From: Acholoe squamosa
Lineage: Eukaryota > Annelida > Polychaeta > Phyllodocida > Polynoidae
Length of the DNA: 64,000 nucleotides
NCBI GenBank assembly: GCA_949317995.1
Contig: OX439038.1
Location: 62,001 to 126,000 of the forward strand
Direction of reading: 5' to 3'
The position numbers and the translations under genes were made by a program. The notes beneath the pieces were generated by a model. That model did not search any database. It was given only the letters and a program-made list of their open reading frames with translations, and was not told the origin of the DNA. Positions within the stretch are counted from its first letter, which is position 1. Each line of letters starts with the position of its first letter. Shown piece by piece: positions 16,256 through 63,667 of this stretch.

Positions 16256-16295
16256 ACAAGGTTACACCCGTTTCAATTGTAAAACAGCATTTATT

Positions 16296-20703: not shown

Positions 20704-20913
20704 TACCTGCCTCCCCCTCACATAAATCTTTGGTCCCTTCCTATGTACTACTTCTGCTTCTGCTTCTGCTTCTGCTAGTGTTTTTTATATAGGGTTTTAC
20801 TATTAAAACATATTTTTTGGGGATATGGATACCAGAAGCAGAAGCAGAAGCAGAAGCAGAAGCAGTACAAAGAAAGGGACCAAAGATTTATGTGAAGGGG
20901 AGGCACGTAGGGT
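20704..20913. repeat. Foldback hairpin with CTTCTG iterated arms
   Basis: Outer arms GCCTCCCCCTCACATAAATC (20709 onward) and their complement (to 20904) match with one difference. Inside are four CTTCTG hexamers on the left and five CAGAAG-type units on the right, around an AT-rich centre containing TATATAGGG. It lies between the broken Rep-like copy and intact copy 2, so it is the neighbour of both. Confidence 0.92.
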
Positions 20914-21190
20914 AAAGGTATAGGTTAAGTTACAATAACCAATACACAGGATAACCAACCCGTTATTTTATACGGTGATATGTTAAACTGTTTTACGCTA
21001 TATTAACAGCTAATTTTATACTTACAAAAAGAACTATGTGAAAAAATTTTATTTATTACTTTAAACACACATTTACAGATCAAACCTAAAAACATGTTTT
21101 ACATGCACGATGATTGCAAGAAATACCAATAATTTGTGTAATAACAAGCCTCATTTTATTGCGCTTTTGTTTTTATGCACACAATTAAAG

Positions 21191-22684
21191 TCAAATGTCT
21201 ATTTTTAGCTTTTTAGTAAGAGGAAAATCGTCGTAGTCACTGTAGCTGCCGTCCTCGTTCTCATCGAAAAACAAATTGCGCTGTTTAGAGTCTTCTTTTT
21301 TAACCAGTTTCTTAATTGCATATTCAAACCATTGCCCTTTTTTTTGCACATTCTTTATGGAATAGAGGCCTTTGATAATTTCTTCCCAAGTTAGTTTTAA
21401 GCAAGGTATTACTGTCCCACAGCAAGAAACGAGTATATCTATAAAAGCCTCTCTTGTACACTCCGCAGGGTTTTCTCCCTTGTACCTAACTTCAAATAGA
21501 CATTTAGCTCTTTCAATTTGGGCAGAAAGGGCCGTAATCTTTCCCTCATTTGTACGTCGTTTGTTTAAAACCTGTTCTATCTTGATAAACATCTCTCTTA
21601 TTTCATCTTTAAATTCCTCCTCTGTCCAATTTTTTGGCAACAGACAAGCTTTTCTGTCCTCCTCCACAGACCCGTCTAGCCGCACTATTTCGAATCGTTG
21701 TTCCAGTTGCTGTGCATGATCTTTAGATATGAAATGTCTATGCAGTTTTGCATTCCATTCAGCATAGAGTTGATAAATGGGTACGTAGGAGAGCATTATA
21801 ACTTGCACGTCAGGTCTCGGGGTAAAACTTTCACCGTCGGTCTTACAGTTACCTTTGAAACTCATAGCGGATTTGCTTGTCAGTGCTTTCAGTTGGGAAA
21901 ACTCCAGCTTGTTTGCAGGACCCACCTCGTCAAAAACTAGAAACTGGGCTTTCTGTGGCACGGATATCCAGTTGTTTATGTCGTTGACCACGTGTGCATT
22001 ATAAAGGTCCACAAAGTTTTCCATGGCGTGTGTTTTTCCAAAGCCGGGTTTCTTAGAGTAGATGTAGTAATGCTTAAACTTGATTTCCTTTTGACCGGGT
22101 CTTCCCACTATGCTGACATTGGTTTTAGGATATGCATCTGTTGGGACGAATACAGTTTTGTCTGTTTTTGAAGGCTCCCATTCTTCAAAAGTAACTAACT
22201 GTTCACCCTGCAAGTCTGGATTTAGCTTGGTATTTTCAGCTTCTTCTACAACTACCACTCCTTCTTCTAAAGGCTTATTTGTTGTGTGTCTAATCACGTT
22301 GCTGTTTTTTCCTTCAATATAGCCATCCACCGTCGATTGTAAAACTGCATCCCCGAACCGCCAACCGAATTTATACATTATTCTCGTTGGGTCATATCCA
22401 TTTTCGAAGTAGTTCTTTATGAACATGTCTGGTAAAGGCCAGGTTTCCGTGTTCCTTATAGGTACATGTTTAGTTTCGATCAACTTCTGTAAGGTTTTCA
22501 TACCACTTTTAAGACTGATTTTCTTCTTACCAGCTATCATAAGAACGTTTCCGTCTTTTGTCACTATATATCCAGATAACGACCTCTCTTTGGCAAATTT
22601 ATGTAATCGATCCTTGAAATTCTGTTTCGCAACCTCAGTTTTATCGACCTTAAAAAGAAGGTTTCGAACACTCATCCCCGTCAT
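21191..22684 (-). CDS. Rep-like SF3 helicase, copy 2
   Basis: 497 residues from the ATG at 22684. The frame is open further to an ATG at 22939, but a TATAAAA at 22738-22744 and the N-terminal alignment with two paralogues (20544 and 63786) support 22684. N-terminal domain about residues 1-110 (RNLLFKV, LKSGMKTLQ, PIRN, PDMFIKNYFENGYDPTRIM), shared with the paralogues and of unknown function. Helicase core: Walker A KKPGFGKTH near 212-220, Walker B FLVFDEVG near 248-255, then VQVIMLSYVPI and RFEIVRLDG. Acidic region and a TKKLKIDI ending that may be a nuclear signal. Resembles copy 1 along the core. It is flanked by foldback hairpins on both sides. Confidence 0.68.
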   Translation of the reverse strand: MTGMSVRNLLFKVDKTEVAKQNFKDRLHKFAKERSLSGYIVTKDGNVLMIAGKKKISLKSGMKTLQKLIETKHVPIRNTETWPLPDMFIKNYFENGYDPTRIMYKFGWRFGDAVLQSTVDGYIEGKNSNVIRHTTNKPLEEGVVVVEEAENTKLNPDLQGEQLVTFEEWEPSKTDKTVFVPTDAYPKTNVSIVGRPGQKEIKFKHYYIYSKKPGFGKTHAMENFVDLYNAHVVNDINNWISVPQKAQFLVFDEVGPANKLEFSQLKALTSKSAMSFKGNCKTDGESFTPRPDVQVIMLSYVPIYQLYAEWNAKLHRHFISKDHAQQLEQRFEIVRLDGSVEEDRKACLLPKNWTEEEFKDEIREMFIKIEQVLNKRRTNEGKITALSAQIERAKCLFEVRYKGENPAECTREAFIDILVSCCGTVIPCLKLTWEEIIKGLYSIKNVQKKGQWFEYAIKKLVKKEDSKQRNLFFDENEDGSYSDYDDFPLTKKLKIDI

Positions 22685-22744: not shown

Positions 22745-22820
22745 CAGACCTGTGTATGCAAAATGTGACCTATATATGAAATGAATTGACCTACATGTCC
22801 CCGTGTCTTTTTTCCTTGGC

Positions 22821-22976
22821 AAACCTAAAAACCAAGGGTGGTTTAAGCAAGTGGTATGTGGTAAGCAGTAAGCGGTAAGTGGTTTAGGGGGACTTCTTAT
22901 ATTAAAAAGAGTTTGGAAAATGAAGAGACCACTAACCACTTACCACCTACTGGACAAACTCCTGGTTTTAGGTTTA
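22821..22976. repeat. Degenerate foldback hairpin
   Basis: AACCTAAAAACCAAGG on the left pairs with CCTGGTTTTAGGTT on the right; the arms contain imperfect GGTAAG(T/C) repeats (GTGGTATGTGGTAAGCAGTA, then AAGCGGTAAGTGG) against CCACTAACCACTTACCACC. The centre is AT-rich. It looks like an older foldback of the same architecture, downstream of the hexamer type. Confidence 0.7.
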
Positions 22977-23250
22977 TAAAGGTATGCTTCTAAAGTGTAT
23001 TTTAAATACAGGTTGCTTATATTTTTAAGCAACCCTCTGTTAAAGTGTTTTATAGGATAAGCAACTTACTTTCACAAAATAACCAACACATTTATAGCAT
23101 AACCACGCTTCCATGTTAAACATTTTAAGCCGTTTTCATATTTATGTACTAAAACCATACCAAAGTAACTTTAGGCTGCCTAGTTTATTTCTTTCACAAT
23201 TTACTGCACCATAAATCTACCATGCTATTTTTTTCTCACCACAGTTTTAG

Positions 23251-23442
23251 ATCAACCGTAGAAAACCTGCCATATTCCAATTTACTGGCTATGGCTATGG
23301 CTATGGCTATGGCTATGGCTATGTTTTTTGGGACTCTTTTATGTTAAAAGGAATTTAAAAAAATTAAGACCATAGCCATAGCCATAGCCATAGCCATAGC
23401 CATAGCCAGTAAATTGGAATATGGCAGGTTTTCTACGGTTGA
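23251..23442. repeat. Foldback hairpin with GGCTAT iterated arms
   Basis: About 34 bp perfect outer arms (TCAACCGTAGAAAACCTGCC and complement) followed by six GGCTAT hexamers left and a matching ATAGCC array right, with a 55 bp AT-rich centre. The arms are identical in complement, so it could form a very stable cruciform or hairpin. Confidence 0.93.
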
Positions 23443-23843
23443 CCTATATAATTAGAAAACTTTCACTTACATACAGACATTTTTTACTAAAGAACTATAT
23501 AAATGTACTATACTGAATTTTAATACCCGAATACTACGACTTGCGGACAACACAATGGACAATGAACCTTAAACCCCTTTTTATTTTTGTAGTTGTGTTG
23601 ACCCTTTGAAAATGGCAAAAAGTTTAATTTGATTATATTGTGTATGTGGGTAGTAGAAAGTGGTTACGATGTGAAAAATGGTTCAATCGAGGTCGCATTA
23701 GGTGTTTTGACGTGTAATGTTTGGTATGCTTTTGCCAATGCTAATCTACTTAAACCAAATTAGCATCACGGTCAATGAGTACAAAAGAACAATACAATTT
23801 TGTCATGCTAATATAGAGAGGAAGTTTAGCATTGCTGTCTATG

Positions 23844-23895
23844 ATCACAGGGTAGCGCAACAGGGAAGGGTCTAGTTATTGCGCTACCCTGTGAT
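23844..23895. repeat. Short palindromic hairpin
   Basis: Perfect 17 bp arms ATCACAGGGTAGCGCAA and complement, 18 nt loop. The GGGTAGCG core is shared with the type B hairpins of the left region, so it is another member of that family. Second copy at 28487-28538. Confidence 0.92.
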
Positions 23896-24089
23896 GATTT
23901 GACCTAGATTCAGGGCTGTCCCCATAGGAGCCAATGCTAAACTACTCCAAAAACTTACGGTCGTATATGTAGTACAGTAGGGAAATGAAAAATAAGAAGG
24001 GGGTATAACGCATATTCCGCTATTTAATACAGTTTAACATGGCAGTCTATAGTAAAGTGGGTTGGTTATGGTGTAAAATGGTTTAATGT

Positions 24090-24090
<1 letters not shown>

Positions 24091-24121
<31 letters not shown>
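24091..24121 (+). repeat. CAG triplet tract
   Basis: Ten GCA/CAG units in non-coding DNA; the duplicated copy is at 28733-28762 and a shortened version near 26336. Confidence 0.95.
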
Positions 24122-24122
<1 letters not shown>

Positions 24123-24651
24123 TCATGGGAAAGTGTGTTGGTTATCCTGTGAAACAGTGTAACGTCGAAGTGTATAGTTCAATATAACAGTGTATGCTGG
24201 GATGGTGTGTTGGTTATCCTGTGAATGCCTTGCAGCAACAGAGCTTTAACATTGGACCCTATGGAAAGTAGGATTTTACACCCTGAATGCAACATCCAGA
24301 CTATTCGAGGTCCTGTGCACACTTTTAAATGCTTAATTGGGTCGGGTGAATGCTAATTAAGCCCCTGACGAGGTCTATTAATGTAGCCGTTTTTAGGGGC
24401 TCGTTGTGAGGTAACTAAGAATGGTAGCACTTTGAAATTTGGTATATACCCAAACTTGTACTACTTGTACAGATTGCTACGGACCCTTTCAGCAGCTCAT
24501 GGGAAAGTGTGTTGGTTATCCTGTAAGACAGTCTAACATCGAAGTCTATAGTTCAATATAACAGTGTATGCTGGGATGGTGTGTTGGTTATCCTGTGAAT
24601 GCCTTGCAGCAACAGAGCTTTAACATTGGACCCTATGGAAAGTAGGTCGAA

Positions 24652-24889
24652 TTACCCCCCACGCTGCCCCTCCCCCTCTTGCAAACATGAATTGGGGGTC
24701 TTCCCACTGTAGTGTTGGCGTTTGCGTTTGCGTTTGCGTTTGCGGCTAGTAATTTATATGGGGGGTATACATATATAAAAGGAATTTTATAAATTATCGA
24801 GCGCAAACGCAAACGCAAACGCAAACACTACAGTGGGAAGACCCCCAATTCATGTTTGCAAGAGGGGGAGGGGCAGCGTGGGGGGTAAA
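24652..24889. repeat. Foldback hairpin with GTTTGC iterated arms, copy 2
   Basis: Same element as 16296-16538: outer arms TTACCCCCCACGCTGCCCCT and complement, four GTTTGC-type units left, four right, AT-rich centre with TATACATATATAAAAGG. Part of the 2.27 kb duplication. Confidence 0.93.
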
Positions 24890-26672
24890 GATAAATCCTA
24901 ACTTCAGAAGACTTGGAAAGTGAAACAAACTCAACTTTAAAGTACTTCTTTTTGGTTAAGTGCTTAATTGGGTCGGGTGAATGCTAATTAAGCCACTGAC
25001 GAGGTCTATATTAGCCGTTTTTAGGGGCTCGTTGTAAGGTAACTAAGAATGGTAGCACTTTGAAATTTGGTGTACCCATACTACTACTTGTACAGATTCC
25101 TATGGACCTTTCAGCTAATCTCTATGACCCTTTGCCTGCTCGCGCCAGGCCTCTGAAAATGACGAAAATTCAATTTCCACCTTCCTTTGGGGGGGGGGGG
25201 CTCGTTGTGAGGTGACTAAGAATGGCACGGCTTTTAAATTTGCTGTACCCACACTACTACTTGTAGAGATAACAATGGACCTTTCACCTAACCTCTTTGG
25301 CTATTTCCCTGCTCGCACGAGGCCTTTCGAAAACGAGAAAAATTCAATTCTCACCGTCTATGTATGTGGTGGTACGGCAGAGGGGCGTGCTTGTCTCATG
25401 AAACCCGATACTCGTGGACAAAAAAACAGGGGGGTTAAAATTTACATCTGGGGCCAGGCCTCTTCAAAAGTGGGGAAAAAAAATTAATTCTCACCCGTTT
25501 TTAAAGCTCTGCTGTCAGAAAACAAATAACAGCACGACTTTCAATTCTGGTACACTCACACTGCTACTAGTGGACACGAAGATAAACAACCTACCTGACC
25601 TCAATGCCTGTTCACTTACTCGCGCCAGGCCTCCGAAAATGCCAGAAACTTAATTCTTCATTACGAGTACTTGTCTAATAAAACCTGAAACCTGATATCT
25701 TTTTAACAACTTTTGGAATGATTATGAGTAATTGCCTAATAAAATATGAAACCTGATACCTGTGACGTCATCGTACCACGTGACCACCCCCTGTCGCGTC
25801 ACAGTTCAACAACGAAAAAAAACAAGGGGCCTAAAATTTACATACCCCCCGGGGTCTGTCTTGGTATTTACCCGAAACCCTAGCTCTTACGAAACTGAAA
25901 AACGGGGACAAAAGACACACATGACGCCCCCCCCCATTCCCTCGGTTTCATTCGCGTTTCGAACGGAAAATAATTTTTTTTGCCCGAAAAGCCGGTTTTT
26001 GCCCGATTTCCACTGCTGTGATAGGGAAAAAAAGAAAGAAAAAGAAGGAAAAAAAGGGAAAAAAAGCTGGTGAGGTCATCGCGATGATGCAACGGGGGCT
26101 CCCACACAGAGGGGACGGGAAAGAGGAGAAATTCACACTTTCTATGGGATAATACAGTCTAACATAGCAGTCTATAGTAAAAAAAAGCTGGTGACGTCAT
26201 CACGATGATGCAACGGGGGCTCCCACACAGAGGGGACGGGAAAGAGGAGAAATTCACACTTTCTATGGGATAACACAGTCTAACATAGCAGTTTATAGTA
26301 AAGTGGGTTGGTTATCGTGTAGAATGGTTTCATGTAGCAGCAGCAGCTTATGGGAAAGTGTGTTGGTTATCCTGTGAAACAGTGTAACGTCGAAGTCTAT
26401 AGTTCAATATAACAGTGTATACTGGGACGGTGTGTTGGTTATCCTGTGGATGCCTTGCAGCAACAGAGCTTTCACATTGGACCCTATGGAAAGTAGGATT
26501 TTACACCCTGAATGCAACATGCAGACTATTCGGGGTGGTGTGCACACTTTTAAATGCTTAATTGGGTCGGGTGAATGCTAATTAAGCCACTGACGAGGTC
26601 TATATGAGCCGTTTTTAGGGGCTCGTTGTGAGGTAACTAAGAATGGTAGCACTTTGAAATTTGGTTTACCCA

Positions 26673-26757
<85 letters not shown>
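26673..26757 (+). repeat. ACT/CTA triplet tract
   Basis: About 85 bp of perfect TAC triplets replacing a TACTAC(TT) pair found in the parallel copies near 25080 and 29725, that is, a local triplet expansion. Confidence 0.95.
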
Positions 26758-26758
<1 letters not shown>

Positions 26759-26962
26759 GTACAGATTGCTATGGACCCTTTCAGCAGCTCATGGGAAAGT
26801 GTGTTGGTTATTCTGTGAAACAGTCTAACATCGAAGTCTGTAGTTCAATATAACAGTGTATACTGGGACGGTGTGTTGGTAAAGACTTGGAAAGTGAAAC
26901 AAACTGAACTTTAAAGTACTTCTTTTTGGTTAAGTGCTTAATTGGGTCGGGTGAATGTAGTG

Positions 26963-27070
26963 AAACATAATTTAGTTGACTATAAATAAGGCGGCCCTTT
27001 GGTTACCATGGTGACTGCACCCACTGACCTTTTACCACTGTTACCATAGCAACAGCATTTTTACCCCCCA
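26963..27070 (+). promoter_or_regulatory. Composite TATA/X-box module, copy 1
   Basis: About 105 bp shared at three places (27775-27880 and 63291-63396): TTGACTATAAATAAGGCGGC, then GGTTACCATGGTGAC, ACTGACCTTTTACC and TGTTACCATAGCAAC, ending in a TTACCCC run. CTATAAATAA resembles a TATA or MEF2 site and the two palindromes resemble RFX X-boxes. Each copy leads directly into a foldback hairpin. Regulatory function is inference. Confidence 0.45.
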
Positions 27071-27088
27071 CGCTACCCCTCCCCTCCT

Positions 27089-27310
27089 GCAAACATGAAA
27101 TCGGGACTCTTCAACTTGGCTGGTCCGGGGTCCGTGGTCCGGGGTCCGGGGTCCGGGGTCCGGGGTCCGGGGTCCGGGTTTTTCATACAGTTTCTATTGT
27201 AAAATCTTATTTTAAGTAAAAGAGTCTATGTAAATACATAGCAAAAAACCCGGACCCCGGACCCCGGACCCCGGACCAGCCAAGTTGAAGAGTCCCGATT
27301 TCATGTTTGC
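27089..27310. repeat. Foldback hairpin with GGTCCGG iterated arms
   Basis: Outer arms GCAAACATGAAATCGGGACT and complement are perfect to GGCTGG; then seven or so GGTCCGG heptamers left and three to four CCGGACC units right, around a centre TTCATACAGTTTCTATTGTA and onward. The arms differ in repeat number. Confidence 0.92.
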
Positions 27311-27901
27311 AGACTTAATTTATGTATATAGGGCAGCTTGACCTACATCCGGGCATTTTTGCTGGAGCCAATGCTAAACTACTCCAAAAACTTACAGTCG
27401 TCTATGTAGTACAGTAGGGAAATGAAAATAAGAAGGGGGCATAACGCATATTTCGCTGTTTAATACAGTTTAACATAGCAGTCTATAGTAAAGTGGGTTG
27501 GTTATTGTGTAAAATGGTTTAACATAGCAGTTTATGGGAAAGTGTGTTGGTTATCCTGTAAAACAGTGTAACATCGAAGTCTATAGTTTAATATAACAGT
27601 GTATGGGATGGTGTGTTGGTTATCCTGTAAAACAGTCTAACATCGAAGTCTGTAGTTCAATATAACAGTGTATACTGGGACGGTGTGTTGGTAAAGACTT
27701 GGAAAGTGAAACAAACTGAACTTTAAAGTACTTCTTTTTGGTTAAGTGCTTAATTGGGTCGGGTGAATGTAGTGAAACATAATTTAGTTGACTATAAATA
27801 AGGCGGCCCTTTGGTTACCATGGTGACTGCACCCACTGACCTTTTACCACTGTTACCATAGCAACAGCATTTTTACCCCCTACACTGCCCCTCCCCCTTT
27901 T

Positions 27902-28100
27902 GCAAACATGAAATCGGGACTCTTCAACTTGGCTGGTCCTGGTCCTGGTCCTGGTCCTGGTCCTGGTTCTGGTTTTTTCATACAGTTTCTATTGTAAAAT
28001 CTTATTTTAAGTAAAAGAGTCTATGTAAATACAAACCAGGACCAGGACCAGGACCAGGACCAGGACCAGCCAAGTGGAAGAGTCCCGATTTCATGTTTGC
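27902..28100. repeat. Foldback hairpin with GGTCCT iterated arms
   Basis: Same outer arms and same centre as the 27089-27310 hairpin, but the inner arrays are GGTCCT hexamers (left) and AGGACC hexamers (right) in place of GGTCCGG heptamers. So the repeated unit changed in both arms while everything else stayed constant. Confidence 0.92.
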
Positions 28101-28358
28101 AGACTTAATTTATGTATATAGGGCAATAGTTGACCTACTTTCCATAGGGACCAATGTTAAAGCACTCCCCAAAACTGCCTTATATGCAGCAACTTCGAAC
28201 ACTGAATGGATATTAGCCAATCAGAATGACAGGTTTAAGCATTGCACTTTAAGGGGGCGAGGTGGGCTGTAAAGGGTGTATTATAATTGTTTTTTCGCCC
28301 CCGCAATGGGCTTGTTGTACAGTAAATGTCTTAATGATGGTTGAATGACACTTAATTT

Positions 28359-30630
28359 AATGTTTGGTATGCTTTTGCCAATGCTAATCTACTTAAACCA
28401 AATTAGCATCACGGTCAATGAGTACAAAAGAACAATACAATTTTGTCATGCTAATATAGAGAGGAAGTTTAGCATTGCTGCCTATGATCACAGGGTAGCG
28501 CAACAGGGAAGGGTCTAGTTATTGCGCTACCCTGTGATGATTTGACCTAGATTCAGGGCTGTCCCCATAGGAGCCAATGCTAAACTACTCCAAAAACTTA
28601 CGGTCGTATATGTAGTACAGTAGGGAAATGAAAAATAAAAAGGGGGTATAACGCATATTCCGCTATTTAATACAGTTTAACATGGCAGTCTATAGTAAAG
28701 TGGGTTGGTTATGGTGTAAAATGGTTTAATGTAGCAGCAGCAGCAGCAGCAGCAGCAGCAGCTCATGGGAAAGTGTGTTGGTTATCCTGTGAAACAGTGT
28801 AACGTCGAAGTGTATAGTTCAATATAACAGTGTATGCTGGGATGGTGTGTTGGTTATCCTGTGAATGCCTTGCAGCAACAGAGCTTTAACATTGGACCCT
28901 ATGGAAAGTAGGATTTTACACCCTGAATGCAACATCCAGACTATTCGAGGTCCTGTGCACACTTTTAAATGCTTAATTGGGTCGGGTGAATGCTAATTAA
29001 GCCCCTGACGAGGTCTATTAATGTAGCCGTTTTTAGGGGCTCGTTGTGAGGTAACTAAGAATGGTAGCACTTTGAAATTTGGTATATACCCAAACTTGTA
29101 CTACTTGTACAGATTGCTACGGACCCTTTCAGCAGCTCATGGGAAAGTGTGTTGGTTATCCTGTAAGACAGTCTAACATCGAAGTCTATAGTTCAATATA
29201 ACAGTGTATGCTGGGATGGTGTGTTGGTTATCCTGTGAATGCCTTGCAGCAACAGAGCTTTAACATTGGACCCTATGGAAAGTAGGTCGAATTACCCCCC
29301 ACGCTGCCCCTCCCCCTCTTGCAAACATGAATTGGGGGTCTTCCCACTGTAGTGTTGGCGTTTGCGTTTGCGTTTGCGTTTGCGGCTAGTAATTTATATG
29401 GGGGGTATACATATATAAAAGGAATTTTATAAATTATCGAGCGCAAACGCAAACGCAAACGCAAACGCAAACACTACAGTGGGAAGACCCCCAATTCATG
29501 TTTGCAAGAGGGGGAGGGGCAGCGTGGGGGGTAAAGATAAATCCTAACTTCAGAAGACTTGGAAAGTGAAACAAACTCAACTTTAAAGTACTTCTTTTTG
29601 GTTAAGTGCTTAATTGGGTCGGGTGAATGCTAATTAAGCCACTGACGAGGTCTATATTAGCCGTTTTTAGGGGCTCGTTGTAAGGTAACTAAGAATGGTA
29701 GCACTTTGAAATTTGGTGTACCCATACTACTACTTGTACAGATTCCTATGGACCTTTCAGCTAATCTCTATGACCCTTTGCCTGCTCGCGCCAGGCCTCT
29801 GAAAATGACGAAAATTCAATTTCCACCTTCCTTTGGGGGGGGGGGCTCGTTGTGAGGTGACTAAGAATGGCACGGCTTTTAAATTTGCTGTACCCACACT
29901 ACTACTTGTAGAGATAACAATGGACCTTTCACCTAACCTCTTTGGCTATTTCCCTGCTCGCACGAGGCCTTTCGAAAACGAGAAAAATTCAATTCTCACC
30001 GTCTATGTATGGGGTGGTACGGCAGAGGGGCGTGCTTGTCTCATGAAACCCGATACTCGTGGACAAAAAAACAGGGGGGTTAAAATTTACATCTGGGGCC
30101 AGGCCTCTTCAAAAGTGGGGAAAAAAAATTAATTCTCACCCGTTTTTAAAGCTCTGCTGTCAGAAAACAAATAACAGCACGACTTTCAATTCTGGTAGAC
30201 TCACACTGCTACTAGTGGACACGAAGATAAACAACCTACCTGACCTCAATGCCTGTTCACTTACTCGCGCCAGGCCTCCGAAAATGCCAGAAACTTAATT
30301 CTTCATTACGAGTACTTGTCTAATAAAACCTGAAACCTGATATCTTTTTAACAACTTTTGGAATGATTATGAGTAATTGCCTAATAAAATATGAAACCTG
30401 ATACCTGTGACGTCATCGTACCACGTGACCACCCCCTGTCGCGTCACAGTTCAACAACGAAAAAAAACAAGGGGGCTAAAATTTACATACCCCCCGGGGT
30501 CTGTCTTGGTATTTACCCGAAACCCTAGCTCTTACGAAACTGAAAAACGGGGACAAAAGACACACATGACGCCCGCCCCATTCCCTCGGTTTCATTCGCG
30601 TTTCGAACGGAAAATAATTTTTTTTGCCCG
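28359..30630 (+). repeat. 2.27 kb direct repeat, copy 2
   Basis: Second copy of 23716-25986. It differs by a few bases and by one extra GCAAAC unit in the foldback. Its right edge is joined to the promoter region of the gene at 30776. Confidence 0.92.
29292..29535. repeat. Foldback hairpin with GTTTGC iterated arms, copy 3
   Basis: Equivalent of 24652-24889 in the second 2.27 kb copy, with one extra GCAAAC unit on the right arm. Confidence 0.93.
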
Positions 30631-30650
30631 CCATTGATGACACTCTCCAA

Positions 30651-30659
30651 TATATAAAG
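30651..30659 (+). promoter_or_regulatory. TATA box for the 30776 gene
   Basis: TATATAAAG about 118 bp before the ATG. GTTGCTAGGGTAACC, a good RFX X-box match, lies between it and the gene near 30693-30707. Confidence 0.6.
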
Positions 30660-30775
30660 GACGAGAAAGTAAAAAAAGTTCAAAGAAGTGCAGTTGCTAG
30701 GGTAACCAGAACCCACTTCCCCCTGTGAACGTGCGGGAGCAAAAGAACTTGGAGTAAAAGCTACACGAGGGTAGG

Positions 30776-31441
30776 ATGGATATGAATTTAAACACGGATT
30801 TAACAGGCGAGATTAGTTACAGAAATAAGCTGTTAGAAAAGATACCGGAGAATTACAAGGATGACTTCAGTAGGCCTGTTAAGGAAAACGAATCGACAAT
30901 GCAACACGAACTGGATGTACACGTGGTACTGGGGGCAGTACAACGTGGTGGTAACTGGAAGGATTTTAAAGGAAAACTACATGAAACTCAAACATTTGAT
31001 CCCAAACTTGATTGGGAGCTAGCTTTGTCTTCTTTTAGTATAGCTTATAGTGAATTAGAAAAGGATTTGTTTGATGTTGGTGCTTTTAAAATGTTCATAG
31101 AGATAGATTTAATGAACACAGAGGGCGAAAAGCAAACGGTGCATTTTAATACAACAATGAAACCTTTCTTAGATTCTTTTATTAGCAGTTTTGTTATGAC
31201 ATATACCGAGAAATTGAAGATATTTAAAATTGATTATTACAGGGTTAAATGCTATACACCGAGAGGTACTTTGCCGTCCACTTTTCCACCTCGCATCTGG
31301 TATAATGTTTCTTTGATGGCGAGGTACAAAAATTGTTTGTCGTGCTTCGCTTGCACACCACATCTAATGAACTGGTTTCCACTTGAGTTTGATGAGTGGC
31401 GTGCTAAAATGGTATGCCGTGATCTTAACAAGAAAACATAA
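30776..31441 (+). CDS. Tandem paralogue family, member 1
   Basis: 221 residues. One copy of a roughly 170 residue domain: a His-Glu-x-Asp-Val strand, a Gly-Asn-Trp-x-x-Phe-x-x-Lys-Leu motif, Leu/Phe-Asp-Pro-x-x-x-Trp-Glu-x-Ala-Leu-x-x-Phe-Ser-Ile, then IEIDLMNTEGEKQTVHF, a LKIFKID motif and a Cys-x-x-Cys-x-x-Cys cluster (CLSCFAC) near the end. No signal peptide or membrane span. The WEVAL-type strand and beta-rich pattern resemble jelly-roll minor capsid (penton-like) proteins of other invertebrate DNA viruses, but this is weak. Function unknown. It is followed by two relatives in the same direction, each with its own promoter. Confidence 0.7.
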   Translation: MDMNLNTDLTGEISYRNKLLEKIPENYKDDFSRPVKENESTMQHELDVHVVLGAVQRGGNWKDFKGKLHETQTFDPKLDWELALSSFSIAYSELEKDLFDVGAFKMFIEIDLMNTEGEKQTVHFNTTMKPFLDSFISSFVMTYTEKLKIFKIDYYRVKCYTPRGTLPSTFPPRIWYNVSLMARYKNCLSCFACTPHLMNWFPLEFDEWRAKMVCRDLNKKT

Positions 31442-31583
31442 AATGTAATTTGTGTAATTTTTTTGGCCACGTTCAATTGCATCTTCTATATTTTCATGCA
31501 ATGAACAAAGAAATGAAATACTGTGCTCTGATTGGCTAATTTAATGAGATGTACATACGGGGATGCCATGAAAGGTATGACAG

Positions 31584-31590
31584 TATAAAC
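31584..31590 (+). promoter_or_regulatory. TATA box for the 31655 gene
   Basis: TATAAAC 71 bp before the ATG, with an inverted CCAAT (CTGATTGGCTAA near 31528) upstream. Confidence 0.55.
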
Positions 31591-31654
31591 ATGGGCTGAG
31601 TGCAGATGATTGAAGTATCCATGTTAGGAATGAGACGTGTTGAGAAATTCTAAA

Positions 31655-32842
31655 ATGGAAGAAAGCATGGATTTTACCACAGAAAGCTTAAACTGGATTA
31701 ATTTAATGAACGAGAGACCCAAGTATATCCCTGCTTTGAAAGAAAATCAATCGGACACAGAACATGAAATGGACGTTGCTATGGTATTACCGAAAGATCC
31801 ACATAGAGGTGAGCCTTGGAACAATTTTGGAAATAAACTATATGAAACTGTAAAGCTAGATCCAAACCTAAATTGGGAACTAGCTATAAGGGAGTTTTCG
31901 ATAATGGGTGTATCAACGGAGGATTTTTGTCACCTCAGTACTTTAAAGATGGTAATAGAAATAGATTTAATGAACAGCGAGGGTGAAAAGCAAACGGTTC
32001 ATTTTACTAGAATGTTGAAATCCCATGCAGGCTCTTTGTTGTGTAATGAAATTATGGAATATATGGAAAAGTTAAAGATATTTAAGATTGATTCGTTTCG
32101 ATTTAGAGCTCGTGCAGTAGGTGTAACTTTACCTTTAATTCCACCGACCTATAATGTTATCGCTGCTTTAAATGCGAGGTACGAAAAGTGTTCAGCATGC
32201 TTCATTTGTAGATCAGACCTCATGTGTTGCTATCCAAAACCGTTTTACCAATATGATTATCCCTCTTTGAATGAAAAACGATCCAACATGGAACACGAAA
32301 CAGACGTTTACATTTCAATTGATCGTGACAAACGTAAATGTCAGCCTTGGAACGATTTTGAAAATAAACTAGATAAAACTATAACTTTAGATCCGAACTT
32401 GGATTGGGAAGTAGGTCTGTGCAATTTTTCGATATGGAGTGGTAATTTAATCAAGTATTTCTCTGACATAGATGTGGTTAAAATGCTTGTAGAGATAGAT
32501 CTCATGAACACAAACGGCGAAAAGCAAACGTTGTATTTCAGTAAGATATTAAAATCGTACACCCCTGTGCTTATGTGCGATGGTGTTTGGGAATACACTG
32601 AAAAACTTAATATTTTTAAAATCGATTCTTATAGATTGAAAGCTCATGCAGTAGGTGTTAATATTTGGCAACGTGCAGAAAAACTAAAAATTTCTAAGAT
32701 TAATTCGCATAGATTTAAATTTGGGTCAGTGGGTGTTAATCTCCCTCTGATTCCACTAGGCTTTACTGTTTCCTCTGGAATTATGGCCAGGTACAAAAAG
32801 TGCACGTCATGCCATGTTTGCAAATTAGAACGGTACAATTAG
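31655..32842 (+). CDS. Tandem paralogue family, member 2 (double domain)
   Basis: 395 residues from the first ATG (a GTG opens the frame at 31637). It contains two copies of the family domain: residues about 25-195 and 205-390, each with the HE-x-DV start, GEPWNNF/CQPWNDF, LDPNL(N/D)WE and EIDLMN-x-x-GEKQT motifs and a Cys-x-x-Cys-x-x-Cys cluster at the end (CSACFIC, CTSCHVC). The second domain carries an extra internal duplication of about 27 residues around its EKL-x-I-x-KI segment. The gene probably arose by fusion of two tandem copies. Function unknown. Confidence 0.7.
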   Translation: MEESMDFTTESLNWINLMNERPKYIPALKENQSDTEHEMDVAMVLPKDPHRGEPWNNFGNKLYETVKLDPNLNWELAIREFSIMGVSTEDFCHLSTLKMVIEIDLMNSEGEKQTVHFTRMLKSHAGSLLCNEIMEYMEKLKIFKIDSFRFRARAVGVTLPLIPPTYNVIAALNARYEKCSACFICRSDLMCCYPKPFYQYDYPSLNEKRSNMEHETDVYISIDRDKRKCQPWNDFENKLDKTITLDPNLDWEVGLCNFSIWSGNLIKYFSDIDVVKMLVEIDLMNTNGEKQTLYFSKILKSYTPVLMCDGVWEYTEKLNIFKIDSYRLKAHAVGVNIWQRAEKLKISKINSHRFKFGSVGVNLPLIPLGFTVSSGIMARYKKCTSCHVCKLERYN

Positions 32843-33027
32843 GTCATATATCCCAAACTAAGGAACAATTTTGCACTTTCGGAGAGGAACTAGGATAAAA
32901 CAAATTCATTCAAGCCTTTTGGTAGTGTTGCTTTTTAATGTGCATCTGTACTTTTACCATGTGTATGAGTTATGTGAATTGTTATTGAGCTTTTTTGGTA
33001 CCTCTTATATGATTGGTTATTTGAAAG

Positions 33028-33036
33028 TATATAAAG
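33028..33036 (+). promoter_or_regulatory. TATA box for the 33086 gene
   Basis: TATATAAAG 50 bp before the ATG, with an inverted CCAAT (ATGATTGGTTATT near 33010) just upstream. It resembles the promoter at 30651. Confidence 0.65.
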
Positions 33037-33085
33037 TAGAGAGTGCACTTAGCTGCAGTAGTGTTTTTAAAAAGGGTAAACGGGC

Positions 33086-33661
33086 ATGGACACCGGTTTT
33101 AATATGGATATACCAAAGGAAATACCAAGGATATACAGACCTTTAAAGGAAAAACAATCTGACATTCAGCATGAAACGGACGTGGTTATTTCACTAACGG
33201 GACCGCGAAATGGCCAGGCCTGGAATGATTTCGGAGAAAAACTCCCAAAGACTGTAAGACTAGATCCAAAGCGTCAATGGGAAGTGGCAATAAGTTATTT
33301 TTCCATAGTCGGTAATTCAGAAGAGGATGTGTGTAACTTTAGTCCTTTTGAAATGCTCATAGAGGTCGATATTATGAACACCGATGGAGAAAAACAAACA
33401 TTGCATTGTAGTAAAATGATAAAACCCCACAATGGCGTTTTGTCTTGTAATTACATTATGGAATATAGTGACAGACTAAAAATACTTCAAATTGATTCGT
33501 GCAGGGTGAGGTCACGTGCAAAGGAAATAATTTTACCTCCACTTCCACCCAACTTTATAGTGGTGACTGGTTTAACAGCAAGGCATGAAATATGCCGAGG
33601 GTGTCGTTGTTGCACGCACGGCGAGAATTATGATAAATGCATGTTGTGCATGATCACATAG
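33086..33661 (+). CDS. Tandem paralogue family, member 3
   Basis: 191 residues, one family domain: HETDVVISL, GQAWNDFGEKL, LDPKRQWEVAISYFSI, IEVDIMNTDGEKQTLH, a LKILQID motif and a Cys-rich C terminus (CRGCRCC, then more Cys). The Asp-Pro-x-x-x-Trp-Glu and Gly-Glu-Lys-Gln-Thr motifs are the most conserved across all four domains in the family. AATAAA at 33663-33668 comes directly after the stop. Function unknown. Confidence 0.7.
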   Translation: MDTGFNMDIPKEIPRIYRPLKEKQSDIQHETDVVISLTGPRNGQAWNDFGEKLPKTVRLDPKRQWEVAISYFSIVGNSEEDVCNFSPFEMLIEVDIMNTDGEKQTLHCSKMIKPHNGVLSCNYIMEYSDRLKILQIDSCRVRSRAKEIILPPLPPNFIVVTGLTARHEICRGCRCCTHGENYDKCMLCMIT

Positions 33662-33788: not shown

Positions 33789-34331
33789 CTAGCAGTAATA
33801 AGATTGTCTTGCCTGATTAGTGTAGGCGTTAGATACAAATACTCCATTACCAGTTAGGCCAGGACCCCCGTCTGCATAAAAATCTGGTTCACCGAGGGGG
33901 TTGGCAGTAGTTAAATCTAATATTCCTTCCGTTGATTTGCTGAAAGAAAATTTGCCATAGTTTTTTGGAATGGAATTCGAAGAAAGATTATTATGGTGCT
34001 TCTTAAGGATTTGCAGTTGATAGTTCACAGAGTTTAAATGTTGAACAATGTGTACAATCGAAGCCTTGTATTGGTAAAGTGTGTTTATTGCTTTGATGGC
34101 TAAAGGACATGTGGGGGAGATTCGCAAATGTTCCACAGCAACATCGTCGTTTGCTTCCCATTTGTGCACAGAAACTCCGCATGTATAGCAATACACCTCA
34201 TCACCTACTCCATTATAAAAAAATCCATTTGTAGCCAGTGTTTGTGAACATGGTGAACTTTTTATCCAATTTTTTAACTGAAAAGTAGTTAACCTAGCTG
34301 ATAAATCTTGGTACTCCGGATGCTTGGCCAT
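33789..34331 (-). CDS. Single-BIR protein (IAP-like), copy 2
   Basis: 180 residues. BIR domain about 5-80 with Cys48, Cys51, His68, Cys75 in the same spacing as the other copies, and a helical segment to residue 115. The C-terminal 65 residues are Gly/Ser/Asn-rich, low in charge and unlike the other two copies. No RING. Promoter side: a TATA-like ATAAATAC (minus strand, near 34450-34462) and the perfect X-box-like palindrome GGTTGCTATGGTAACC at 34435-34450. Converges with the 33086 gene. Confidence 0.82.
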   Translation of the reverse strand: MAKHPEYQDLSARLTTFQLKNWIKSSPCSQTLATNGFFYNGVGDEVYCYTCGVSVHKWEANDDVAVEHLRISPTCPLAIKAINTLYQYKASIVHIVQHLNSVNYQLQILKKHHNNLSSNSIPKNYGKFSFSKSTEGILDLTTANPLGEPDFYADGGPGLTGNGVFVSNAYTNQARQSYYC

Positions 34332-34434
34332 GCTTATTTTTGAAATCGACAGTTTAAGATTTCTTTCGATACTAAGAAGCTTATGTTTGCAGAAGGATAT
34401 TGATAGTGTGAGGGTAAGTGAGTTACTAAGCCCT

Positions 34435-34450
34435 GGTTGCTATGGTAACC
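34435..34450. promoter_or_regulatory. RFX X-box-like palindrome
   Basis: GGTTGCTATGGTAACC is fully palindromic apart from its two central positions and fits the X-box pattern GTNRCC-NN-RGYAAC; an inverted CCAAT (TGATTGGTTATAA) follows at about 34471. It is upstream of the minus-strand BIR gene and may also serve plus-strand transcription into the hairpin cluster. Confidence 0.5.
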
Positions 34451-34812
34451 AGTATTTATCCCATCTGCTTTGATTGGTTATAACTATACTAAAATCAGGG
34501 GCGAGGGCGAGGGCAAGCAAGTAGTATAGAGAGGTACACCCTGTTTCATGTTTTTAGGGAGAGTAGGGGGTGCATGGGGGGGTAAGTAGGTTACTAAGCT
34601 GTGGTTGTCACAGCGACCGGTGTTCACTTTGTGTGCTCTGACTGGCTAACCTGCATGGGGCTGTTGGGTGTGTAGCTTTGCTCAGTGCAGGGAAGGTTTT
34701 AGAGGCTCAGTAGCAGAGGGACCAGCGTGGTAGCAGGAGCAGGAAAGGACCTGTTCCTGTTTGTACACATTTCTCCCACAACAGAATTTTCTGAGACATT
34801 GGAACACCGTTC

Positions 34813-34868
34813 TAGCTTACCTTTGTCGAAGTGTCTTCGTGAATTACGTATAAGGCATGGCAAAGCTA
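34813..34868 (+). ncRNA. Hairpin A of the cluster
   Basis: Stem from TAGC/GCTA, TTTGTC/GGCAAA and GTGTCTT/AAGGCAT (with G-U pairs) around a loop containing GAATTACGTA, a diverged form of the common loop. Confidence 0.5.
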
Positions 34869-34888
34869 CCCTTTGTAAGGAGGAAATA

Positions 34889-34951
34889 AAAACATGGGCT
34901 GGATTTTTATCTGTGTGGAGTACGTTATACCAAAGTTCTAGCCCATGTTTT
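34889..34951 (+). ncRNA. Hairpin B of the cluster
   Basis: Perfect 12 bp outer stem AAAACATGGGCT/AGCCCATGTTTT, an internal loop, a short GTGT/ATAC inner stem and the loop GGAGTACGTT (34917-34926). Size about 63 nt, as in a microRNA precursor. Confidence 0.62.
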
Positions 34952-35052
34952 CTAAGTGGTCTACTGTAGTAACCAACCTTACTTGCTACTTGAAGGTGTA
35001 CAGCTAAATGTTTAGGCATTTAAACACCATTGTAGTTTACATTTGTGGATGA

Positions 35053-35077
35053 GCCTTTTGTGGAGTACGTATAAGGC
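35053..35077 (+). ncRNA. Hairpin C of the cluster
   Basis: GCCTT/AAGGC stem extended by weaker pairs, loop TGGAGTACGTA. The 3' arm TAAGGCATGGCA is shared almost exactly with hairpin A, so A and C are recent duplicates. Confidence 0.5.
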
Positions 35078-35132
35078 ATGGCAGAGCTACCCTATTAAAT
35101 ATAACCGCGTATAAAAAGTGATCAGTTTGAAG

Positions 35133-35194
35133 AAAATAGGGCTGGATATGTATTTACGTGGAGTACGTTTTGCTTACGTTTCAGCCCATATTTT
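35133..35194 (+). ncRNA. Hairpin D of the cluster
   Basis: AAAATA/TATTTT and GGGCTG/CAGCCC pair with one bulged A, then ATGTA/TACGT; loop GGAGTACGTT at 35160-35169. Stem resembles hairpin B but with compensated differences. Confidence 0.62.
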
Positions 35195-35262
35195 TTGAGT
35201 CCTCTACTATGGTATTTCTTCCATATAATGGCTACTACATGTGTGTCATGAAATGCGTGTGC

Positions 35263-35296
35263 CCACCCCATTGGATACGTGTTTTGGACGGGGTGG
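35263..35296 (+). ncRNA. Hairpin I of the cluster
   Basis: CCACCCC/GGGGTGG stem around a 20 nt loop that starts ATTGGATACGT, a variant of the common loop lacking one G. Same design as hairpin J. Confidence 0.5.
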
Positions 35297-35345
35297 TTCC
35301 GTGTTAATGTCATGCAATGATTTTTTTGTACTATGTGGTAAACAC

Positions 35346-35409
35346 AGAACAGTGGCTTTAATATGTACCTACATGGAGTACCTTATATGTAGTGTACGGC
35401 CCACGTTCT
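35346..35409 (+). ncRNA. Hairpin E of the cluster
   Basis: AGAAC/GTTCT and GTGG/CCAC outer pairs, then GTAC/GTAC and the perfect inner stem CTACAT/ATGTAG closing the loop GGAGTACCTTAT (35375-35386). Confidence 0.62.
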
Positions 35410-35476
35410 TTGTGTACTGCATTATAGTACATAATCTACAATGCACTAATACTGCTATGTGATGAAATACATGTCC

Positions 35477-35509
35477 CTACCCCTGTGGATACGTTTGTGA
35501 ATGGGGTGG
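35477..35509 (+). ncRNA. Hairpin J of the cluster
   Basis: CTACCCC/GGGGTGG stem with one U-G pair; loop contains GGATACGTT (35487-35495). Paralogue of hairpin I. Confidence 0.5.
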
Positions 35510-35595
35510 TGCATTATTTTAGTTACATGCAAGTATTTTGTCTGCTTTTATGTGTCTTGTACATGGCTAGGTGCCAAGATTTAACATGAAAGCCT

Positions 35596-35624
35596 TGTCC
35601 CTCGGAGTAAGCTTTACAGGGACG
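35596..35624 (+). ncRNA. Hairpin F of the cluster
   Basis: GTCCCT/AGGGAC stem (35597-35602 with 35618-35623), loop starting CGGAGTAAGCTTT, a one-base variant of the shared loop. Confidence 0.5.
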
Positions 35625-35658
35625 TGTTTTTAAAAAGCCTTTCAGTGTTTAAGTCAGT

Positions 35659-35730
35659 ACCAAAACCATTAAACAGGATCACCAGCAGTGGAGTACGCTT
35701 TAAAGGAGTACGTGTGGGCAACGTTTTGGT
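35659..35730 (+). ncRNA. Hairpin G of the cluster
   Basis: Perfect 8 bp outer stem ACCAAAAC/GTTTTGGT enclosing about 56 nt that contain the loop motif twice (GGAGTACGCTTT at 35690 and GGAGTACGT at 35705). Inner pairing is unclear; it may be two overlapping copies. Confidence 0.45.
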
Positions 35731-35760
35731 GCAGTTTTTTAACCCTTATATTATTTTACT

Positions 35761-35815
35761 AGACAGTGATTGTGTGTCTTTGGAGTACGTTATTAAGACA
35801 ACACGTTCGCTGTCT
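35761..35815 (+). ncRNA. Hairpin H of the cluster
   Basis: AGACAGTGA/TCGCTGTCT and TGTGTGTCTT/AAGACAACACG pair nearly end to end, closing the loop TGGAGTACGTTATT. It is the best precursor-like fold in the cluster (about 55 nt). Confidence 0.65.
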
Positions 35816-35837
35816 TGTAAAAACATTCATGAAAGCT

Positions 35838-35847
35838 AATAAATAAA
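35838..35847 (+). terminator. Tandem poly(A) signals after the hairpin cluster
   Basis: AATAAATAAATAAA contains overlapping AATAAA signals on the plus strand although no plus-strand gene ends here; this supports a non-coding transcript through 34.7-35.8 kb. The minus-strand BIR gene ends 15 bp further on. Confidence 0.6.
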
Positions 35848-35862
35848 TAAAACAATTTTTCA

Positions 35863-36258
35863 TTATGTGTTGTTTATTTGGTTCGTATTAATCATTTGTA
35901 ACTGATAACAGAGTTTGTTATGGTCCTTTTTAAGAATTTGTAGTTGATAATCCACAGAGTTTAAATATTGTATAATGTCTGTCAATATGACTTTACATTT
36001 GTCTGTTGTATCTATTGCTGCAAAGGCTATAGGACATGTGGGAGAGCTTTTGAAATGTTTTATAGCTACATCATCGTTTGGTTTCCATGTAAAAACAGCA
36101 ACTCCACATTCAAAGCAATTTACAGCATCAGCTACTCCGTGATAAATAAATCCATTTGCAGCCAGTGTTTGTGGAGACGGTGATTGTTTTTTCCAATTTT
36201 TTAATTGAAAAGTATTTAATCTAGCTGCTAAATCTTGATACTTTGGATGCTTGGTCAT
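35863..36258 (-). CDS. Single-BIR protein (IAP-like), copy 3
   Basis: 131 residues. BIR domain about 5-80 with Cys48, Cys51, His68 and Cys75, closest to the copy at 33789-34331 (near-identical N terminus of the form M-x-KHP-x-YQDL). A helical tail to the end with the same LNSVDYQLQILKK-type segment as copy 2. No RING. An AT-rich TATTTATA (36342-36349) and a run of 12 C on the minus strand (36356-36367) lie upstream. Confidence 0.84.
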   Translation of the reverse strand: MTKHPKYQDLAARLNTFQLKNWKKQSPSPQTLAANGFIYHGVADAVNCFECGVAVFTWKPNDDVAIKHFKSSPTCPIAFAAIDTTDKCKVILTDIIQYLNSVDYQLQILKKDHNKLCYQLQMINTNQINNT

Positions 36259-36608
36259 CTTAATTTCTAATTACCTCTTTTGCCGTGGTTCACTGTTTAA
36301 GATTTTTTTCCATACTGAAAAAGGTTATGATTGCAGGAGGGTATAAATAGCGTCAGGGGGGGGGGGGTAAGTGGAAGTGATATGATTGGCTGACCTAAAT
36401 GGGAAGGGTAGGTGTGAAGGTGTCTCTTTCTAGTGTTCTAAAGGTTCTAAAGGGGTAAAGGCTTAAAGCTATACCTGTAATGCAATGCAGACCTTTCAGT
36501 TAATGGCAAATGAATATATAAACTAAACAAACTTCTAAGAGAACTTGCTGGTTTTTATTTGTTACAAAGTATTACTTTTTAACCTATATTTACTAAAATG
36601 ACAAAAAG
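36259..36608. other. Intergenic promoter region
   Basis: Contains the TATAAATA/TATTTATA element at 36342-36349, a 12 bp G run (36356-36367), an inverted CCAAT (ATGATTGGCTGACC near 36381) and a small AAAGGTTCTAAAGG direct repeat (36437 on). No gene is seen. Confidence 0.5.
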
Positions 36609-37395: not shown

Positions 37396-38304
37396 ATGGA
37401 GTTTAACAACCAAACCATAAAAGAAAAAATGACTGCAGATGAAGATGACTTTAGCTACCTGACTGACTTGTGTCAAAATGAAAGTAACAAGAGGGTAAAT
37501 GCCAGAAAGTGGACCCACGGTGTTACGTTTGAACAGCGTGAAAAAATACAGGGTTTTTTACAAAAACTAGCTGCTCAAAAGGTACAAGAGGCAGAAAATT
37601 GGCTGAAGGAAAACGGAAAAGAAACAGAAGAATGGATTAATGAACTTATGGGAGAAGTCAACAGTACGTTTGAACAAGTGTCTACCAGGGACCAAAACCA
37701 AAGACCTTTAGTAGCCATTTTTGTTTTACCCTCCAAAGGAAAAAGAAATCAACAACTCGACTACCTATATCCTTATCCCGTGACCATGTCTACGAAGCCC
37801 TTGATGGACGACTACGGAAAAGCTAGAATATATATACGTTTGCTAATGTCATGCCTTTATTTTAAAGCCGTTGAAAAGTTTGGAGCAAGATATGCCTCAT
37901 ATTACTCAGGCATAACGACAGATTACAAGTATGATTTAGACTTTTGGGGCCAAGCTCGAGTGGACAGGTTAAAGTGTCGCTTCATACAGGCGATGGACAA
38001 CTGCCGATATTCCCGTACGGTTTACAGTAACCTCGACAAATTACAACAAGCTCAACTTACAGTTATCTTCGCTAGAGCCTTTCCCACCAAGTCACTTTTA
38101 AACGAACTGCTAGATAAGGCAGACGTTACATGCATGAAACTTAAAACGGACAAGAGAAAGAGTGGAACTTCTCGAAGACTTATTCGAAGCGTTCGGACTG
38201 CAAATTTAAAGCACGATAAATGGAGTGTGCTTAAAAAAAGGAACCGTTTGTTGCGGGTTACACCTGAGAAAGAAAATTTGGATGATAAAAGTATGCCAAA
38301 ATGA
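37396..38304 (+). CDS. Unknown conserved-looking protein
   Basis: 302 residues from the ATG at 37396, which is in better context than the frame's first ATG at 37348. N-terminal acidic segment (DEDDFSYL), a charged helical region about 40-90, a middle with KGKRNQQLDYLYPYP, and a basic C-terminal 70 residues rich in Lys and Arg. No known family is recognised. Its stop codon overlaps the next gene's ATG in an ATGA, so the two are probably expressed together. Confidence 0.6.
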   Translation: MEFNNQTIKEKMTADEDDFSYLTDLCQNESNKRVNARKWTHGVTFEQREKIQGFLQKLAAQKVQEAENWLKENGKETEEWINELMGEVNSTFEQVSTRDQNQRPLVAIFVLPSKGKRNQQLDYLYPYPVTMSTKPLMDDYGKARIYIRLLMSCLYFKAVEKFGARYASYYSGITTDYKYDLDFWGQARVDRLKCRFIQAMDNCRYSRTVYSNLDKLQQAQLTVIFARAFPTKSLLNELLDKADVTCMKLKTDKRKSGTSRRLIRSVRTANLKHDKWSVLKKRNRLLRVTPEKENLDDKSMPK

Positions 38305-63635: not shown

Positions 63636-63667
63636 AGATAAATGCTGTTTTACAATTGAAACGGGTG

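Follow-up and report, generated by a model that had tools for sequence, protein, structure and literature searches.

Baculoviruses, which are large DNA viruses, carry homologous regions built as arrays of imperfect palindromes, in which conserved binding-site arms surround an EcoRI core. To our knowledge, the microRNA clusters of herpesviruses (KSHV, EBV) do not share an apical loop, and it is their arms rather than their loops that are kept. What is known of non-coding RNAs in animal viruses concerns mostly microRNAs or RNAs with no more than a few binding sites. The CsrB RNA of E. coli is 369 nucleotides long and contains 22 GGA sequences; it sequesters CsrA, and its best sites are located in the loops of hairpins (PMC5027483). 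A GGAG in a terminal loop is recognized by zinc knuckles, as in LIN28 with let-7 precursors and in the HIV nucleocapsid with its packaging signal (PMC3759924). With long reads, HaHV-1 was shown to have six non-coding RNAs and OsHV-1 three (PMC8537636).

Here we analysed a 64-kb stretch of DNA (the window; C4:62001-126000) whose first base lies 62 kb inside a contig of 91 Mb; the assembly totals 1.48 Gb in 63 contigs, 18 to 20 of which are large (C18 measures 53.9 Mb and C21 0.29 Mb). Between 34.70 and 35.86 kb of the window, in the interval separating two minus-strand BIR genes that are 1.5 kb apart, lies an array of hairpins with a common apical loop (Table 1). Like CsrB and RsmZ of bacteria, the array combines many hairpins with one GGA-containing loop element, and GGA is present at the apices in 10 of its 11 motifs. 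Unlike these bacterial RNAs, it resides in a virus-like element of an animal genome and has no Rfam match, and the context CAGGA(U/A/C)G that is usual there has no matches on either strand of the array region. A CsrA-type partner is unlikely in an animal host.

Other known systems share some of these features. GGAG is present in eight of the 11 array loops, as it is in LIN28-bound let-7 precursors and the HIV packaging-signal loop; unlike LIN28 targets, loops A, E and G lack GGAG, and conservation spans UACGU. Because three of the 11 loops are without GGAG and all 11 carry UA, LIN28 alone does not explain the array, and the let-7 seed GAGGTAG is absent from the array region. Tandem hairpins in a non-coding viral region recall the herpesvirus microRNA clusters, and an array of imperfect palindromes recalls the baculovirus homologous regions, but GAATTC is absent from the array region. 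A literature search on a thin basis yielded no description of an equivalent shared-loop array. We favour, with somewhat less than even confidence, the reading that the array would be transcribed into a non-coding RNA in which one protein-binding loop is displayed many times over, in the manner of a CsrB/RsmZ-like sponge.

Table 1. Coordinates of the array, its hairpins and its flanking genes in the window
Feature	Position	Strand	Basis
Candidate non-coding RNA unit	34700..35860	+	No conserved ORF; folds better than shuffles; 3' end at AATAAA signals
Leading hairpin without motif	34718..34777	+	Local fold, -27.8 kcal/mol
Hairpin A, variant GAATTACGT at 34841	34821..34865	+	z -3.4; extended to 34813-34873, z only -1.2
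Hairpin B, GGAGTACGT at 34917	34889..34951	+	z -5.6
Hairpin C, sister of A, GGAGTACGT at 35062	35032..35090	+	z -0.2, no better than shuffles
Hairpin D, sister of B, GGAGTACGT at 35160	35131..35196	+	z -5.0
Hairpin E, variant GGATACGT at 35273	35238..35319	+	z -1.9
Hairpin F, diverged sister of B and D, variant GGAGTACCT at 35375	35333..35422	+	z -3.1
Hairpin G, sister of E, variant GGATACGT at 35487	35449..35536	+	z -2.9
Hairpin H, motif absent	35544..35593	+	z -3.8
Short hairpin I, variant GGAGTAAGC at 35604	35597..35623	+	z -1.9
Hairpin J, two motif copies: variant GGAGTACGC at 35690 and GGAGTACGT at 35705	35657..35732	+	z -1.0, no better than shuffles
Hairpin K, GGAGTACGT at 35782	35754..35822	+	z -6.0
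Two AATAAA polyadenylation signals past the last hairpin (35838, 35846)	35838..35851	+	Sequence
BIR gene 1, diverging from the array	33789..34331	-	Pfam BIR, E 1.7e-18
BIR gene 2, converging on the array 3' end	35863..36258	-	Pfam BIR, E 7.9e-18

A shared loop at hairpin apices

The 9-mer GGAGTACGT occurs five times in the window, each time on the + strand and within the array, and is absent from the minus strand of the window. Genome-wide, 1152 occurrences were counted on one strand of the 1.48 Gb, array copies included, versus the five that fall within 0.9 kb here. The shorter GGAGTAC is found eight times on the + strand of the window, with seven of these copies inside the array. When the loop variants are included, the array holds 11 motif copies, all of which keep G1, A3, T5 (U5) and A6, and 10 of which keep positions 2, 7 and 8. 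A first-pass annotation of this DNA had described the loop as exact or near-exact; the longer form GGAGTACGTT is exact in three places (34917, 35160 and 35782), and for most loops the description holds as near-exact only. A GGAGTAC is also located just past the start codon of the BIR gene 1 message (34311-34317, minus); it is one of three window copies outside the array and may be there by chance.

The 11 motifs are enclosed by a mean of 21.5 base pairs, compared with 10.0 +/- 2.3 across 1035 circular shifts, and only the observed shift attains this value. The motif variants were picked post hoc, and hence the seven exact GGAGTAC copies were also tested separately; their 21.9 enclosing pairs are attained by 2 of the 1035 shifts. 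The four variants A, E, G and I alone have 21 enclosing pairs (attained by 8 of 1035 shifts), and the sole exact + strand GGAGTAC outside the array, at 44600, has eight. Motif centres reside no more than 5 nt from the hairpin centre in 10 of 11 cases, the exception being J2 (14.5 nt off), and neighbouring motifs are spaced 76-145 nt apart except for J1 and J2 (15 nt). Motif bases are unpaired more often (means 0.42-0.80) than the array region as a whole (0.37).

A window scan for motif plus hairpin, in which at most two mismatches were allowed and at least 14 enclosing pairs were required, recovered 10 of the 11 array motifs, missing that of I because its mismatches exceed the limit, and returned another 13 candidates outside the array, with energies of -8.5 to -15.0. 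The coordinates in the first-pass annotation are correct, and its cluster of hairpins with a common apical loop is confirmed by the motif census and the apex position. Its suggestion that this loop could be a common protein-binding or processing signal is the simplest reading of a shared apical element.

The same annotation had found no convincing open reading frame, and this assessment holds. The longest ORF in the array (106 amino acids, 34699-35019, minus) has a length attained by 45 of 2000 shuffles and no Pfam match, and in the sister copy all minus frames are interrupted by stops. A protein encoded by the minus strand, to which an ORF longer than in 1955 of 2000 shuffles could point, is hardly credible given the loss of the frame in the sister copy and the absence of a Pfam domain. 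A search for tRNAs also returned none.

The AATAAA signals that had been noted at the end of the region are indeed present, where they face the end of BIR gene 2 on the opposite strand. A further AATAAA is located inside the array at 34885 and counts against one polyadenylated transcript. Also on the negative side, positions 34331-34718 contain no consensus + strand TATA box, the nearest being at 34214 (within BIR gene 1) and 35110 (within the array). RFX-like and CCAAT boxes were considered as a + strand promoter, and GTAAGT as splice sites, but this reading was dropped because, as we read the sequence, a similar module precedes both minus-strand BIR genes. This module, which combines GTAAGT with a CCAAT in inverted orientation, is found at 34409-34480, 34578-34650 (in degenerate form) and 36360-36395, and its first copy includes an RFX-like site. 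The BIR genes that flank the array are duplicates that include part of their upstream regions.

Folding, strand and divergence of the hairpins

An unrestricted fold of 34800-35798 gives z -3.2 for the + strand, with none of 20 shuffles as good, and z -3.3 for the minus strand. When pairs are limited to 90 nt, the values are -4.7 and -2.4, respectively. The folding check proposed in the first-pass annotation thus shows a stability better than that of shuffled sequence. Among 66 one-kb segments ranked by excess stability, the + strand segment that was positioned to fit the array is third, and segment 35001-36000 of the regular grid is fifth. Single hairpins B, D, K, H, A, F and G are clearly more stable than their shuffles (z -2.9 to -6.0), E and I are marginal (about -1.9), and C and J are not above shuffles, all of these values being optimistic since the hairpin boundaries were taken from the fold.

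With strand-neutral pairing, the stems carry 27 G-T versus 5 A-C mismatches (binomial p 0.003 against region composition), an excess pointing to a + strand that would fold as RNA with G-U pairs. All 12 hairpins are more stable as + strand RNA, although this is a consequence of the G-U pairs already counted. The unrestricted fold gives no strand distinction, and this counts against the + strand RNA reading. The array could instead operate as DNA, offering repeated protein-binding sites or extruded hairpins for replication, recombination or telomere joining, because hairpins are inverted repeats in DNA too, the minus strand folds well, other large palindromes are present in the window, and the element resides near chromosome ends. 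We consider such a DNA-level element very unlikely, because all 11 motifs have the same direction, G-T mismatches exceed A-C mismatches, the hairpins are more stable as + strand RNA, and the arms are not conserved, unlike the sites of a dimeric DNA binder.

Three sister groups can be distinguished inside the array (A/C, B/D/F and E/G), and the members of B/D/F and E/G differ at 30-45% of positions. To evaluate retention of the hairpins, the substitutions of one sister were placed randomly on the same background in 1000 trials, and the placements that fold as well were counted. For B and D, these number 10 (B to D) and 9 (D to B) of 1000; for B and F, 1 (B to F) and 4 (F to B); for D and F, 0 (D to F) and 17 (F to D); and for E and G, 8 (E to G) and 60 (G to E). 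The A/C comparison provides no support (757 and 238 of 1000). Hairpins B, D and F, as well as E and G, therefore look kept as hairpins on the basis of these comparisons.

At fixed columns, nine of 10 comparisons give no significant retention of pairs, and the tenth, B-D on the fold of D, gives weak retention (77 of 2000); double changes are significant in none of the 10. Fixed-column covariation probably fails to reach significance because pairs slide by one base between sisters. The earlier description of stems that differ yet stay paired is thus upheld for B/D/F and E/G, but not for A/C or by fixed-column covariation. The loop is better preserved than the remainder in all five sister comparisons, with 9 or 11 of 11 or 9 of 10 loop positions identical (82-100%), versus 51-76% for the rest.

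This last result bears on the main rival reading, in which the hairpins would be clustered precursors of microRNA-like small RNAs, with the common loop as a shared processing signal and with arms that diverged into different small RNAs. MicroRNA clusters usually keep their arms and let the loop drift, whereas here the loop is conserved and the arms less so. The precursor sizes anticipated in the first-pass annotation are present in six of the 11 hairpins A-K: B, D and K have 63-69 nt with 24-25 base pairs, and E, F and G have 82-90 nt with 28-36 pairs, E being only marginally above its shuffles. In contrast, I has a length of only 27 nt and A of only 45 nt, and C and J are no better than shuffles. 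No Rfam family is matched at its gathering score; of five weak matches in the array (E 1.2-2.8), two are with microRNA families and fall on hairpin K. In let-7 precursors, the terminal loop carries a conserved GGAG that is known to act as a processing signal (PMC3759924). Another source reports that white spot syndrome virus encodes microRNAs, and also that no genuine viral microRNAs were found in OsHV-1 (oyster herpesvirus) despite 236 predicted hairpins (PMC7488030). We regard the small-RNA reading as unlikely.

Genomic copies and the surrounding element

A DNA search located the array at 21 genomic places including the window's own (loci L043-L063), of which 17 are full-length at 99.1-100% identity and four are partial. 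These lie on C1, C3, C4, C7-C11, C13, C14, C16 and C18 among the contigs. All 18 copies on large contigs are within 235 kb of a contig end, and in 17 of these the + strand points inward. Where two copies share one contig end, they are 128 kb (C7), 175 kb (C8) or 198 kb (C10, C11) apart. The neighbouring gene at 37396-38304 is found at 19 genomic places, including a near-identical copy at C6:93407-94312 (L079), a contig on which no array is listed. The region thus represents an endogenous virus-like element that is associated with contig ends and exists in many, almost identical copies.

Five of nine contig-end stretches match window DNA (the C3 end, the C4 and C5 starts, and both C10 ends). 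The C2 and C12 starts are TTAGGG arrays, and the C7 and C18 starts contain neither window DNA nor TTAGGG. At the C3 end, about 0.7 kb separates a viral palindromic element from the 3.3 kb of TTAGGG that come after it, and only this end has virus beside telomere; in the stretches examined, the other virus-bearing contigs have no telomere repeats at their ends. By eye, the first bases of C4 (L064) recur in reverse about 0.15 kb before the TTAGGG array at the C3 end (L091), a match which suggests a fixed element end joined to the telomere. The element may have spread recently, and it may have joined telomeres. The orientation and end placement of the copies recall telomere-integrating herpesviruses.

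Variation among the copies was used to look for recent constraint. Two partial copies (L061 and L062) are about 5% apart from the window and match only up to 35507, so that they may be decaying. Their changes break pairs as often as random changes do, and an equally good folding energy is reached by 207 and 190 of 400 random placements. Inside motifs fall 4 of 36 and 4 of 38 differences, without depletion; of the four, two bring A and F nearer to the consensus, and two change ACGT to ATGT in hairpins C and D. In L063, one of nine differences affects a motif, converting J1 to GGAGTACGT. Across the 18 near-identical copies, counting that of the window, motif bases make up 97 of 1161 nt and are hit by 2 of 38 variants, again with no clear depletion. 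Relative to the window, L061 and L062 are 97.1-97.8% identical in the BIR1 frame, 95.3-95.6% in the array and 92.6% in the stretch between them, and the BIR1 frame contains one gap column in L061 and one stop in L062.

Recent purifying selection on the array is not visible in these copies, a result that counts against our preferred reading. Any argument for selection has to come from the older divergence between sisters. The neutral appearance of the 5%-apart copies, along with the lack of variant depletion in motif bases, would fit tandem hairpin duplicates that are decaying without present function. However, the hairpins and loop were retained over the older divergence, in which sisters came to differ by 30-45%, and we judge a decaying repeat to be decidedly unlikely.

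We also sought relatives of the array elsewhere. None were detected in tblastn-confirmed scans of viral contigs (five queries) or genome contigs (one query). An 18-base pattern search matched one contig (L001) over 20 bases, which was taken as chance. A two-motif pattern matched 33 contigs, in which 15 of 75 motif copies have at least 18 enclosing pairs, and five of the 33 loci have two such copies (L010, L014, L015, L025 and L031). L015, L025 and L031 were rejected as array relatives and read as repetitive or duplicated coding sequence, and L014 has the same values as L025. L010 aside, no relative was found outside this genome in the collections searched.

The comparison with herpesviruses in the first-pass annotation finds no support in the genes scanned: Pfam searches with 33 of the 43 window ORFs of at least 100 amino acids matched no herpesvirus family. 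The region is a multi-copy element near contig ends of a genome with TTAGGG telomeres. The scan yielded BIR domains, a BTB-BACK protein, a helicase-like stretch, and an RRM-like stretch just below the cut-off. PDB sequence searches returned BIR relatives (81 sequences) and otherwise nothing or matches with E values of 0.1 and worse. Searches for the Egg_lysin and WSS_VP families gave no match, an outcome that does not establish their absence. We infer that a mollusc-type herpesvirus would fit the combination of BIR genes and telomere repeat. The product of 55794-57431 may resemble a herpesvirus protease, but a structure model of the 55794-56513 product has a pLDDT of 34, too low to be of use. 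Nimaviruses (Majanivirus) have a crustacean host, and the crustacean telomere repeat is TTAGG; a nimavirus was dropped from consideration because the telomeres here are TTAGGG (arrays at the C2 and C12 starts and the C3 end), with no TTAGG runs in the nine end stretches. Two reports describe integrated malacoherpesvirus genomes from amphioxus (PMC12373286) and BIR-bearing endogenous nimaviruses within telomere repeats from shrimps (PMC10871703).

The window has several further features. It carries three BIR genes (19073-19516, 33789-34331 and 35863-36258), the other two being 42% and 59% identical to 33789-34331. A palindrome of 250-300 bp is present four times (16286-16562, 24652-24899, 29292-29545 and 63379-63672), three times with CGCAAA repeats, and more palindromes are located at 20698-20915, 23248-23446, 27087-27312 and 27901-28101. 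Near-identical long repeats (98.8% and 99.3%) are found at 4-6905 and at 23715-25986 and 28358-30630, and no ATG-initiated ORF of 100 amino acids is present in 1-9973 or 22785-30775. Positions 30776-33661 hold a tandem family of related domains across three ORFs, with no worthwhile Pfam match. The same lack of a worthwhile match applies to 17390-18868 and 21191-22684, which are paralogues with 47% identity and a GKT stretch reminiscent of a P-loop.

A candidate loop-presenting RNA

In our preferred reading, the + strand of 34.70-35.86 kb would encode a polyadenylated non-coding RNA with about 10 hairpins, all of them presenting one element, (U)GGA(G)UACGU, at the apex. The array may have grown by hairpin duplication, after which the stems would have drifted while mostly staying paired, and the loop would have been retained. 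A loop that is kept while stem sequence does not matter is the pattern of a multivalent protein-binding RNA. The likeliest use would be the multivalent binding of one loop-recognizing RNA-binding protein, of host or viral origin, with the outcome that this protein is either soaked up, as CsrA is by the sponges CsrB/RsmZ, or gathered on one RNA. The analysis establishes the shared loop and its location at the apex, the hairpins, the lack of a conserved frame and the sequence signs of a + strand RNA, whereas transcription and polyadenylation of the array, protein binding to the loop, and titration as the outcome are inferred. Neither a CCHC knuckle nor any of three other RNA-binding patterns was found in the 72 window ORFs of at least 60 amino acids.

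A stronger version of this proposal, which we hold to be rather doubtful, is that a telomere-dwelling endogenous animal virus has a dedicated sponge RNA whose roughly 10 diverged hairpins serve as interchangeable handles for one loop-binding protein, and that this RNA would be the first eukaryotic-virus counterpart of CsrB/RsmZ. An array that conserves only its loop would read out the binding preference of one protein directly, and would thereby reveal which RNA-binding protein, of host or virus, is important to the element. Because the element resides near many chromosome ends, mostly in one orientation, any transcript would come from telomere-linked copies.
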